From NCBI GenBank assembly GCA_014650475.1, contig BMVA01000002.1:186001-250000 (forward strand): DNA of 64,000 bases, read 5' to 3'. Positions 8,608 through 44,188 of the stretch are shown here, in pieces. The translations under genes were made by a program, and so were the position numbers. The number at the start of each line of letters is the position of its first letter. Positions within the stretch are counted from its first letter, which is position 1. The stretch is from Streptomyces albogriseolus. Lineage in GTDB: Bacteria; Actinomycetota; Actinomycetes; Streptomycetales; Streptomycetaceae. The notes under the pieces were generated by a model, which was not told the origin of the DNA, made no database searches, and saw only the letters and a list, made by a program, of their open reading frames with translations.

Positions 8608-8621
8608 GGCCCGCGTACACG

Positions 8622-8715
8622 CACTCGCGGGAGCCCGGACGCACCGGGCTGAGAGGGAGGCTGGCGGCCTCCGACCGTACGAACCTGATCCGGGTCATGC
8701 CGGCGAAGGGAGGGG
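8622..8715 (+). promoter_or_regulatory. TPP riboswitch (THI box)
   Basis: The conserved thi-box core is plainly present: GGGCTGAGAGGGAGGCTGG at 8646-8664, then GACCGTACGAACCTGATC at 8673-8690, then the CCGG-GTCATGCCGGCGAAGGGA segment. These correspond to the pyrimidine-sensing and pyrophosphate-sensing helices of the TPP aptamer. The aptamer ends about ten bases before the thiO start, so control is most likely at translation initiation through masking of the GGGAGGGG purine stretch at 8708-8715. The outer limits given are approximate. Confidence 0.95.
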
Positions 8716-8725
8716 CTGGACGCCC

Positions 8726-10907
<2,182 letters not shown>

Positions 10908-41300: not shown

Positions 41301-42665
41301 TCAGGCGCGCCCCGACGTGTCCGGGACACAACGCCCGTCCACCGTCCGGTACTTCCACCGCGCCCCGTCCCGCACAAGCTCCCGCACCGCCCGCACGAAC
41401 CGCGAGACGTGTTCCTCCGGCGTGCCGACGCCGAAGCTGACGCGGATCGCGTTCAGCGCCCCCGCCTCCGGCGCCCCGCACTCCCCCGCGCCGCCCGCGT
41501 CGCCGTCCAGCAGCCTCCGGACCAGCGGGTGCGCGCAGAACAGGCCGTCCCGTACGCCGATGCCGTACTCGGCGGACAGCGCCGCCGCGAAGTGGGAGCT
41601 GTTCCAGCCGTCGACCACGAAGGACAGCACCCCGACGCGGGGCGCGTCGTCGCCGAACAGGGACAGGAACCGCACCTCCGGCACGTCCGCCAGCCCCTCC
41701 CGTATCGCGCGGACCAGCGCGTCCTCCCGCGCGGCCAGCGCGTCGAAGCCCGCCTCGGTGAGCGCCTTGCAGGCGGAGGCGATCGCGTAGGCGCCGATGA
41801 CGTTGGGCGAGCCGGCCTCGTGGCGGGCGGCGGTCTCGTGCCACTGCACGTCCACTCCCCCGTCCGCGCGCCGGGCCACCGTGCGGCTGGCGCCGCCGCC
41901 GGCGAGGTAGGGCTCGGCCTCGCGGAGCCAGTCGGCGCGGCCGGCCAGGACTCCGGAGCCGAAGGGCGCGTACAGCTTGTGGCCGGAGAAGGCGACCCAG
42001 TCGACGTCCAGGTCGCGCACGCTCACCGCGCGGTGCGGGGCGAGCTGGGCGGCGTCCAGCACGATCCGGGCGCCGTGCGCGTGCGCGGCGGCGGCGAGTT
42101 CGCGGACGGGCCACAGCTCGCCGGTGACGTTCGAGGCGCCGGTGACGCAGACCAGGGCCGGGCCGTAGGGGTCACGGTCGGCGAGGGCGCGCTCCAGGAT
42201 CTCGACGGCCTGCGCGGGGCTGCTGGGTGCGTCGAGGAAGGTCACCCGGCCCGCCCGCCGCCACGGCAGCAGCGCCGCGTGGTGCTCGGTCTCGAAGACG
42301 AAGACCTCGCAGCCGTCGGGCAGGGCGGCGGCGAGCAGGTTGAGGGAGTCGGTGGTGGAGCGGGTGAACACCACCTGGTCCTCGATGCGGCAGTCGAGGA
42401 ACTCGGCGACGGTACGGCGGGCGTTCTCGAACAGGTCGGTGGAGAGCTGCGAGAGATATCCGGCGCCACGGTGGACGCTGCCGTAGTAGGGGGCGTAGGC
42501 GGCCACGTCGTCCCAGACGCGCTGGAGGGCGGGGGCGCTGGCGGCGTGGTCGAGGGCGGCGTAGGCGACCTCGCCGCCGGTGACGAGGGGGACGGCGACG
42601 TCCCGGCCGAGGACGGGCAGCGGGGCGAGGACGGAAGGGTCGGCGGCGACGGTGGCGGCAGGCAT
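41301..42665 (-). CDS. Class V aminotransferase under SAM-riboswitch control
   Basis: This 454-residue PLP enzyme resembles cysteine desulfurases and isopenicillin-N-epimerase-like proteins. It has YGSVHRGAGYLSQLSTDLFE, TRSTTDSLNLLAAAL, LDAAQLAPHRAV and the PLP-binding Lys in VAFSGHKLYAPFGSGVLAG. A long C-terminal insert (GDAGGAGECGAPEAG) is low in complexity. Desulfurase activity is not assured, because the usual catalytic Cys loop is not clear. The ATG at 42665 lies 113 bases after a 6-codon ORF and downstream of a SAM-IV-type riboswitch, which places the enzyme in sulfur amino-acid or SAM metabolism. Exact reaction unknown. Confidence 0.85.
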   Translation of the reverse strand: MPAATVAADPSVLAPLPVLGRDVAVPLVTGGEVAYAALDHAASAPALQRVWDDVAAYAPYYGSVHRGAGYLSQLSTDLFENARRTVAEFLDCRIEDQVVFTRSTTDSLNLLAAALPDGCEVFVFETEHHAALLPWRRAGRVTFLDAPSSPAQAVEILERALADRDPYGPALVCVTGASNVTGELWPVRELAAAAHAHGARIVLDAAQLAPHRAVSVRDLDVDWVAFSGHKLYAPFGSGVLAGRADWLREAEPYLAGGGASRTVARRADGGVDVQWHETAARHEAGSPNVIGAYAIASACKALTEAGFDALAAREDALVRAIREGLADVPEVRFLSLFGDDAPRVGVLSFVVDGWNSSHFAAALSAEYGIGVRDGLFCAHPLVRRLLDGDAGGAGECGAPEAGALNAIRVSFGVGTPEEHVSRFVRAVRELVRDGARWKYRTVDGRCVPDTSGRA

Positions 42666-42777
42666 GACGGACTCCCGGAGGGCAGGGGGGATCCCCGCGC
42701 GGGCGGACGGCGCGACGGCGGCGCTCCAGCGCGAAGGAGAAAGTGACAAGGGGTGTGCGGAGGCGGGGCTCGACGCC

Positions 42778-42798
42778 CTAGCGCATTCGCTTGCTCAC
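42778..42798 (-). CDS. Possible 6-codon upstream ORF (MSKRMR)
   Basis: A GTG-initiated ORF, MSKRMR, ends in TAG and has a GAGGAG ribosome-binding site six bases before its start. It lies between the SAM riboswitch and the aminotransferase gene. The good ribosome-binding site in an otherwise untranslated leader suggests it is translated. It may help the riboswitch act on translation or link it to amino-acid supply. Only the sequence supports it. Confidence 0.4.
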   Translation of the reverse strand: MSKRMR

Positions 42799-42818
42799 AG
42801 AAGGCTCCTCGACGACCA

Positions 42819-42842
42819 GGACCCCTGGTGTGCGAGGGGTCC
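42819..42842 (-). terminator. Hairpin directly after the SAM aptamer
   Basis: GGACCCCT (42819-42826) pairs with AGGGGTCC (42835-42842) around an 8-base loop. It overlaps the 3' edge of the aptamer, so it could be the expression platform: a terminator or a structure exclusive with the aptamer. No clear T run follows. Confidence 0.45.
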
Positions 42843-42953
42843 GCGCTTGCCGTGAGCCCTGCTGCCCACGGCCTGGTCCTCACCCGGGGCACCCCGCCAC
42901 GGACGGAGGGTTGCCGGACAGCCGGCCGGGGCCTGATGGCTGTCACTCATGAC
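42835..42953 (-). promoter_or_regulatory. SAM-IV-type riboswitch
   Basis: On the minus strand the leader reads GGTCATGAGTGACAG, then CCCCGGCCGGCTGTCCGGCA, ACCCTCC, GGGGTGCCCCGGGTGA, GGACCAGG and GGCAAGCGCGGAC. These blocks, in this order, are the core of the SAM-I/SAM-IV aptamer superfamily as found in Streptomyces (SAM-IV). The aptamer lies about 170 to 290 bases ahead of the class V aminotransferase. High SAM should reduce expression of that gene. End points are approximate. Confidence 0.88.
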
Positions 42954-42977
42954 CTGAGAGGGAACGTACGTGAGGTG

Positions 42978-43019
42978 ACGGCCGTCCCGCAACCCGTATC
43001 CGGATGACGGGACGGCCGT
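42978..43019 (-). terminator. Terminator after trpD
   Basis: ACGGCCGTCCCG (42978-42989) and CGGGACGGCCGT (43008-43019) form a perfect 12-base stem with an 18-base loop. It separates trpD from the riboswitch leader on the same strand. Confidence 0.75.
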
Positions 43020-43046
43020 ACGGGGCCCGCATGTCGGCCCAGGCGT

Positions 43047-44111
43047 CTACGCGTTGGTGACGGCGACCCAGCGTTCGAGGACGCGCCTCGCGGCACCGGA
43101 GTCGATCGACTCGGCGGCCTTCTCCATCCCGGCGCGGAGCTGCTCGGTGAGGGTGCCGCCGCCGGGCTCCAGGGCCACCAGCGCCGCCGCGGAGTTCAGC
43201 AGCACCGCGTCCCGCACCGGGCCCCGCTCGCCGTCCAGCAGCCGGCGGGCGACCTCGGCGTTGTAGGAGGCGTCGGCGCCGCGCAGCGCCTCCACGGGGA
43301 CCAGCTCGATGCCGACGTCGCGCGGGTCGAAGGTCTCCTCGGTGACCTTGCCGTCGCGGACCACCCACACCCGGGAGGTGCCGGTGGTGGTCAGCTCGTC
43401 CAGGCCGTCGTCGCCGCGGAACACCAGGGAGGAGTGGCCGCGCCCGGCGAACACGCCGGCCATGATGGGCGCCATCCTCGGGTCGGCGACGCCGACCGCC
43501 TGGGCCTTGACCTTCGCCGGGTTGGCGAGCGGGCCGAGGAAGTTGAACACGGTGCGGACGCCGAGCTGGCCGCGGGCGGCGGCCACGTGGCGCAGCGCCG
43601 GGTGGAACTTCACCGCGAAGCAGAAGGTGATGCCGGCCTCCTCGGCGACCTCGGCGACCCGGCGCGGGGTGAGTTCGAGGTTGACGCCCAGCTTCTCCAG
43701 GACGTCGGAGGCGCCGGAGGCGGAGGACGCGGCGCGGTTGCCGTGCTTGACGACCTTCGCGCCGGTGCCGGCGACGACGATCGAGGACATGGTGGAGATG
43801 TTCACCGTCTTGGCACCGTCGCCGCCGGTGCCGACGATGTCGACGGTGGCGCCGGGCACCTCGATGACGTTGGCGTGGTCGTAGAGCGCCCGCACACAGC
43901 CGGTGATCTCGTCGACGGTCTCGCCCTTGGCCCGCAGGGACACCGCGAAGCCCGCGATCTGCGCGTCGGTCGCCTCGCCCCGCATGATCAGGTCCATCGC
44001 CCACGCGGCGTCGTCGGCGGACAGGTCCCGGCCGTCGAGGAGGGTGTTCAGCAGGGCGGGCCAGGAGCGGCCCGCCGCGGTGTCGCCTCCAGCGGGGGTC
44101 ACAGCGCTCAT
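43047..44111 (-). CDS. trpD: Anthranilate phosphoribosyltransferase
   Basis: TrpD transfers anthranilate to phosphoribosyl pyrophosphate, the second dedicated step to tryptophan. The 354-residue protein has the PRPP loop [37 protein letters not shown] and [10 protein letters not shown]. The ATG at 44111 has an AGGAG ribosome-binding site. It stands apart from trpE(G) (27 kb away) and next to the respiratory genes, the same placement as in mycobacteria. No tryptophan attenuator is seen in front of it. Confidence 0.95.
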
Positions 44112-44188
44112 GGTCGCTCCTGACGGTCGTAGCGGGTGTCGGGGACCGGACGGGTCCCGCACCCACCCTATCCAGCCGCGGGCACGGC

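Follow-up and report, generated by a model that had tools for sequence, protein, structure and literature searches.

A conserved six-codon open reading frame as probable first target of a SAM-IV riboswitch ahead of a SufS-like enzyme gene in Streptomyces

Introduction

In the tnaC-Rho leader of Escherichia coli, tryptophan induces ribosome arrest on a leader peptide that is longer than the one described here. A ribosome standing at the stop codon of the present leader frame would likewise shield an adjoining Rho site, but no inducer is known for its six codons.

Closer systems are found among the actinobacteria. In Mycobacterium tuberculosis, the conserved small ORF rv1805A, located before the structural gene, is the translational output of the Mbox riboswitch, whose leader also undergoes Rho-dependent termination; rv1805A is an annotated gene whose peptide is possibly active itself (PMC12810186). 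In the B12 riboswitch leader of the same species, the downstream gene needs translation of the riboswitch-controlled ORF uPPE2, mostly by reinitiation at overlapping stop and start codons (PMC11260477). In Streptomyces lividans, a SAM-IV riboswitch precedes SLIV_26975, reannotated as 'cysteine desulfurase' (PMC8079986, Table 3). Hence both the riboswitch-enzyme pair and the principle of a riboswitch-controlled leader ORF (Mbox and B12 leaders of M. tuberculosis) are already known.

The locus analysed here lies in a stretch of 64,000 nucleotides of Streptomyces albogriseolus (hereafter the window). It shares with the Mbox leader an actinobacterial riboswitch and a conserved small ORF with a ribosome-binding site, directly behind the aptamer and ahead of a structural gene, and possibly Rho-dependent termination as well; in contrast to the Mg-type Mbox, the switch is of the SAM-IV type, and the ORF is limited to six codons, among them an invariant CGA-AUG. 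Unlike the overlapping codons of uPPE2, 53-292 bases separate the small ORF from the gene in Streptomyces leaders. SAM-IV leaders before the same enzyme family in other actinomycetes have the same aptamer and the same type of alternative hairpins, but no CGA-AUG ORF, and the enzyme start is close behind the switch. In the literature searched, no mention was found of a conserved ORF of six codons serving a SAM-IV switch as its first output, and MSKRMR is not among the eight leader peptides in the consulted part of PMC8079986.

The reading favoured here, with somewhat more confidence than doubt, is that the SAM-IV switch controls the first ORF behind it and that the six-codon ORF relays the signal to the enzyme gene, probably by preventing Rho-type termination.

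Table 1. Features of the leader and of the gene behind it (window positions)
Feature	Positions	Strand	Remarks
Inverted repeat ACGGCCGTCCCG...CGGGACGGCCGT	42978..43019	minus	between upstream gene and aptamer
Candidate -10 element TACGTT	42963..42968	minus	first base 14 bases upstream of aptamer
SAM-IV riboswitch aptamer (RF00634)	42838..42954	minus	covariance model, 109.4 bits
GCGCGGA, last conserved aptamer strand	42840..42846	minus	final three bases also open hairpin H1
Hairpin H1 GGACCCCT...AGGGGTCC, 8 bp	42819..42842	minus	arms 42842-42835/42826-42819
Hairpin H2 ACCAGG-GGT-CCTGGT	42815..42829	minus	alternative to H1
GAGGAG ribosome-binding site of small ORF	42805..42810	minus	
Six-codon leader ORF GTG AGC AAG CGA ATG CGC TAG (MSKRMR)	42778..42798	minus	
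Short hairpin GGGC-GTCGA-GCCC	42766..42778	minus	first base is last base of the TAG stop
C-rich, G-poorer spacer	42678..42765	minus	candidate Rho-loading stretch; role of Rho putative
CGGGAG ribosome-binding site of enzyme gene	42672..42677	minus	
SufS-like class V PLP enzyme, 454 aa	41301..42665	minus	K230, H129, C377, R408

Riboswitch aptamer and upstream region

An earlier note, made from the letters of the DNA, had proposed a SAM-IV-type aptamer, an 8-bp hairpin overlapping its 3' edge, and an MSKRMR ORF with a GAGGAG site followed by 112 bases before the gene. The covariance-model search that it called for gave a match to RF00634 at 42954-42838, scoring 109.4 bits (cut-off 38; E 2.8e-19) over model positions 1-116, i.e. 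a whole-model match above the gathering score, by which the element is assigned to the SAM-IV riboswitches. The hairpin and aptamer do overlap, at 42842-42840, and all elements were located on the minus strand, with 112 bases from the ORF stop to the enzyme ATG (42665). The aptamer is the only SAM-IV element in a scan of the source genome, and it is predicted to bind SAM. Its strand GCGCGGA is presumably the 3' strand of the second SAM-IV pseudoknot. Elsewhere in the window, a TPP riboswitch (61.5 bits) is present on the plus strand at 8617-8728.

A strict sigma-70 promoter scan of the leader region gave no match. In 65 of 80 named Streptomyces loci, the first base of a TANNNT box lies 13-15 bases ahead of the aptamer, and since this box stands directly before the aptamer, the transcript probably begins at the aptamer. 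The same-strand neighbour upstream (43047-44162), beside cytochrome bc1 genes, is presumably an anthranilate phosphoribosyltransferase gene (trpD), and the strong inverted repeat between it and the aptamer is probably the end of its transcript.

Alternative hairpins behind the aptamer

Hairpin H1, sharing 42842-42840 with GCGCGGA, is mutually exclusive with both the pseudoknot strand and the overlapping hairpin H2. Both H1 and H2 are possible in 99 of 104 Streptomyces leaders (34% of shuffles) and in 34 of 38 leaders lacking the small ORF (39% of shuffles); H1 alone is found in 50% and 54% of the respective shuffles. H1 is absent from five Streptomyces leaders, and H2 is positioned before or at the ribosome site. 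Such mutually exclusive hairpins fit a switch that turns off translation of the first ORF behind it, be it the small ORF or the enzyme frame.

The energy model, however, shows no closing of the small ORF's ribosome site when the pseudoknot strand is occupied (unpaired 0.264 vs 0.243); just 52 of 99 leaders have a less accessible site with the strand taken. Strong pairing between this site and the 5' arm of H1 can be drawn (-11.6 kcal/mol), but it has no predicted effect and no covariation (129 of 300 permutations are equally good), and a role as an anti-Shine-Dalgarno element is no more than possible. Folding of the whole leader of the window was uninformative (z 0.52).

The six-codon ORF in Streptomyces

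Among 121 Streptomyces genomes, SAM-IV and the enzyme are both present in the same 118 and both absent from the same three, two of which are incomplete assemblies. Leaders were taken from 111 of the 118 genomes (31 plus 80 loci, seven genomes being left out; in L108 and L111 the contig stops short of the gene). The small ORF is present behind SAM-IV in 110 of the 111 leaders, namely in 104 of 105 parsed by script, L107 being the sole exception, and in all six checked by pattern; the two-layer design of riboswitch and leader ORF proposed in the earlier note is thus supported.

The ORF starts with GTG, as in the window, in 99 of the 104 parsed leaders and with ATG in five, and it ends with TAG in all of them. 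Codon 4 is CGA and codon 5 AUG in 104/104; these counts are to be read knowing that the search expression itself required a start codon, CGN as codon 4, NTG as codon 5 and a stop, which one of the 105 leaders failed. Codons 2 and 3 are variable, and codon 6 is CGA in 57 leaders, CGC in 22, CGT in 17, CGG in two and another codon in six. GGAG, GAGG, AGGG or AGGA lies within 16 bases upstream of the ORF in every parsed leader. The ORF was also found in 79 of the 80 named Streptomyces loci, a set overlapping the 105 parsed leaders, with CGA in 79/79. Across 102 distinct contexts, conservation is 100% for CGAATG and TAGG, 50-99% for the remaining ORF positions (the minimum being the third base of codon 6) and 30-80% for the sequence upstream of the ORF. 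A stricter pattern matched exactly once in each of 36 of 60 genomes of the order (36/45 Streptomyces, 0/15 from other families), and its reversed control gave no match in these 60 genomes.

CGA makes up only 36 of 1188 arginine codons (3%) in 33 ORFs of the window, as against its invariance in the small ORF. Since codon 4 is not changed even synonymously, selection does not act on the peptide alone; the invariant CGA thus argues for a function beyond that of the peptide, and ribosome pausing at this codon is proposed. Base pairing does not account for the CGA-AUG core: with the aptamer, the hairpin region and the leader further downstream as partners, it paired no better than shuffles, and often more weakly.

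Distribution of the ORF and of leaders without it

Within the family, a looser pattern matched in 68 of 121 genomes and 12 of 17 genera. The g118 match, with neither aptamer nor enzyme, was rejected as chance, as were L246 and L247, where neither SAM-IV nor an enzyme homologue is found. Eleven genera remain, Streptomyces and ten others, each with at least one match behind a SAM-IV. Seven g116 loci carry MQKRMR or MSKRMR behind diverged SAM-IV aptamers of 79-90 bits, with the enzyme present, and CGAATG is retained in the variants MSKRM with a TGA stop (L216), MKRMR (L248) and MSNRMR (L257). In g118, the loci L253 and L254 share another tiny frame, GTG ATG GCG TGA, at the place of the small ORF.

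Other loci of the family, namely those of g115 (L228, and L232 by eye), g127 (L249-L252) and two of five g120 loci (L225, L229), lack the ORF and have an in-frame enzyme start shortly behind the aptamer. The single g123 locus (L256) also looks ORF-less, but its contig stops before the enzyme could be confirmed. Of 32 loci outside the family, placement succeeded for 31. CGAATG is absent from these 31 leaders, and in each of them the enzyme frame has an in-frame start at most 98 bases behind the aptamer's AAGCG, the small-ORF start of Streptomyces lying about 23-96 bases behind the same motif. Thus, the expectation in the earlier note that relatives with the same aptamer would share the ORF held for Streptomyces and ten further genera, and failed outside the family and in some of its genera. 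Some other short ORF stands behind a purine run in seven of the 31 outside leaders, these ORFs being mutually unlike, so that direct control of the enzyme is not a clean description in all of them. One of the seven, the leader L140 of a homologue in another family, has behind its aptamer an ORF of 13 codons that runs across the start codon of the enzyme and is possibly an independent leader ORF.

Two Streptomyces, L317 (S. flaveus) and L107, have neither small ORF nor spacer, and the enzyme starts in frame directly behind the riboswitch hairpin; in S. flaveus the enzyme ATG occupies the place of the ORF. As the enzyme start of ORF-less relatives stands where the small ORF starts elsewhere, the aptamer most likely controls the small ORF directly; and since the same switch would drive the enzyme directly in the ORF-less layout, translation of the ORF should promote expression. 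Leaders with the ORF, leaders without it and the two ORF-less Streptomyces constitute a natural experiment on signal transfer from a riboswitch to a leader ORF.

Leader ORFs behind other SAM-IV riboswitches

Twenty other SAM-IV loci of the group were surveyed (L112-L130 and L255), and 11 aptamers were located in them by expression. Behind nine of these 11 aptamers (L113, L114, L115, L117, L118, L120, L121, L128 and L255) there is a leader ORF whose peptide contains (I/V)DL, and cysteine-type leader peptides such as AVDLLRVNSALC and RRHIDLKR occur behind SAM-IV in Streptomycetaceae. One of four (I/V)DL peptides tested scored above the NCBIfam NF042934 'putative leader peptide' cut-off and three below. 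The two genes tested behind such leaders encode transporter parts (an ABC permease and a family 5 solute-binding protein), and a third SAM-IV gene, without the (I/V)DL peptide, encodes a carboxymuconolactone-decarboxylase-type protein. Since cysteine-type leader ORFs stand behind other SAM-IV elements, the combination is not limited to the six-codon case, and the arrangement of riboswitch and then leader ORF may be general among the SAM-IV of the group. Back-to-back SAM-IV pairs on opposite strands, 130-220 bases apart, were also seen (L128 4921-5305 in G040; G436, G426 and G446).

From the small ORF to the enzyme gene

The weakest point of the model is the relay from the small ORF to the gene. 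Two features lie between them. Firstly, a hairpin begins at the stop codon, with a stem of at least 4 bp in 76/76 distinct Streptomyces segments and at least 5 bp in 57, and of at least 5 bp in 16/16 segments from other genera, against a shuffle background of 53-55% (at least 4 bp) and 20% (at least 5 bp); it is kept with changed letters (GGGC/GCCC, AGGCC/GGCCT, GGCC/GGCC). As an intrinsic terminator it was rejected, its stem being only 4-5 bp in 78 of 104 leaders and followed by no U run, and no terminator with a GC-rich stem and U-tract was found in 42640-43060. Secondly, C exceeds G in all 104 spacers examined (mean skew 0.36). With 53-292 bases of spacer, a ribosome on the six codons would cover only its beginning, which counts against the favoured reading; the long and variable distance also speaks against simple reinitiation and for a termination relay.

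A premature transcript has been published for one relative. For the class V gene CRV15_21540 of Streptomyces clavuligerus, a premature transcription unit is predicted as SAM-IV, and the drop in read count into the gene is among the most extreme, the 3' end not being placed relative to the ORF in the consulted parts of that article (PMC8269248). The premature termination would most likely be Rho-dependent.

The favoured mechanism would be as follows. The first ORF behind SAM-IV would be the translational target, which in most other actinomycete leaders would be the SufS-like enzyme itself, and in Streptomyces and ten close genera the six-codon relay. At high SAM, the aptamer would fold with its 3' strand in the pseudoknot, ribosomes would be kept off the small ORF, and the untranslated C-rich leader would be terminated early, most likely by Rho, leaving the enzyme off. 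At low SAM, the small ORF would be translated by a ribosome that lingers at CGA-AUG and again at the UAG codon, and this ribosome would open the stop-codon hairpin and shield the start of the C-rich stretch, so that transcription could reach the gene. If true, a riboswitch would here control a regulatory ORF of very small size, with conservation at codon level in a large genus and ten related genera. A more specific version, put forward tentatively, makes ribosome timing the relay: the ORF would be the direct output of the SAM switch, CGA-AUG-NNN-UAG together with the stop hairpin would delay the ribosome for just the time needed to block termination, the gene would read both SAM and translation or methionyl-tRNA supply, and a cysteine-peptide version would run other SAM-IV genes of the group.

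Of the alternatives, a purely translational relay survives best, and is considered unlikely. Here, the start of the small ORF (CCGUGAG) would pair with CUCACGG beside the ribosome site of the enzyme gene, and a translating ribosome would open the duplex. Control of erm genes by leader peptides is an analogy. For 79 of the 104 Streptomyces leaders, this pairing has an energy of -10.9 kcal/mol (other offsets: -1.8 to -6.4), and 3 of 300 permuted pairings are as good; in addition, the Shine-Dalgarno sequence of the gene pairs with the leader better than in shuffles (-15.7 vs -13.1). However, the pairing is weaker in the other 25 leaders, the class of the window (-8.0, with 22 of 300 permutations as good), 13 of 300 permutations are as good over all 104 leaders, no such pairing was seen by eye in the ORF-bearing L209, L210, L218, L220 and L233 from other genera, and the premature transcript is left unexplained.

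An attenuator that senses charged methionyl-tRNA at the invariant AUG and so forms an AND gate with SAM is improbable. The AUG is codon 5 in 104/104 leaders by an expression that included the TG and in 79 of 80 loci by one that included the whole AUG, and the cysteine-type peptides of some other SAM-IV leaders of the group also accord with such sensing. Against it, there is a single internal methionine codon instead of a run, initiation requires methionine as well, the invariant CGA is unexplained, and the terminator with a U run that belongs to a classical amino-acid attenuator is missing.

That the small ORF is a brake lowering enzyme expression is very improbable: there is a precedent in the metE leader ORF of M. 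tuberculosis, reported to lower expression (PMC11260477), but the ORF-less layout of relatives suggests that the polarity is retained, and since the switch should allow the ORF at low SAM, a brake would work against it. Least probable of all is that CGAAUG...UAG is an untranslated RNA element bound by a protein or RNA, for although codon 4 is never altered, synonymous changes included, the expression of start, six codons and stop failed in only one of 105 leaders, GTG, ATG and TTG starts all occur, the Shine-Dalgarno core is present in 104/104, codon 6 changes chiefly at its third base, and the variants of L216 and L248 are still ORFs.

The enzyme behind the leader

The best matches of the enzyme are SufS/CsdA cysteine desulfurases, and among solved structures the top scores go to cysteine desulfurases and to one entry named aminotransferase. 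Its best curated family match is SufS TIGR01979, with 254.4 bits against a cut-off of 475.1; as this is below the cut-off, the protein is classed here as a relative and not as SufS itself. Its nearest named relatives (94-95%) are from S. werraensis, S. griseoincarnatus and S. cellulosae. Of 39 aligned sequences, including that of the window, 37 cover K230, H129, C377 and R408, and all four residues are the same in each of these; by analogy with SufS, we take these to be the PLP lysine, an active-site histidine, the catalytic cysteine and the substrate-binding arginine, respectively. The enzyme thus shares with SufS the fold family and these four residues, and differs from it in its score and in the DG(L/K/R)FCAHP motif around the cysteine. 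The same genome has a separate canonical SufS match of 617 bits, so the SAM-IV-linked gene encodes, by its sequence, a second, probably SAM-controlled, desulfurase-like protein. The view that the product is not a recognised cysteine enzyme was therefore not upheld, given these matches, the invariant catalytic residues and the published reannotation as cysteine desulfurase; nor is the new reaction suggested in the earlier note indicated, as a SufS-like protein has kept its catalytic residues.

Of 84 non-Streptomyces genomes of the class that have a homologue at E <= 1e-70, at least 51, counted by eye, carry it beside a listed SAM-IV on the same strand, and an uncharacterised SufS-like enzyme would thereby be tied to SAM control across many families of the class. 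Some genomes, e.g. G135, have a homologue with no SAM-IV shown, and the aptamer listed for G164 faces away from the gene. No recurrent downstream operon partner was widespread, by eye, in 19 outgroup loci; a downstream partner is common to a few near relatives (L192/L195, L203/L206 and L189/L191).
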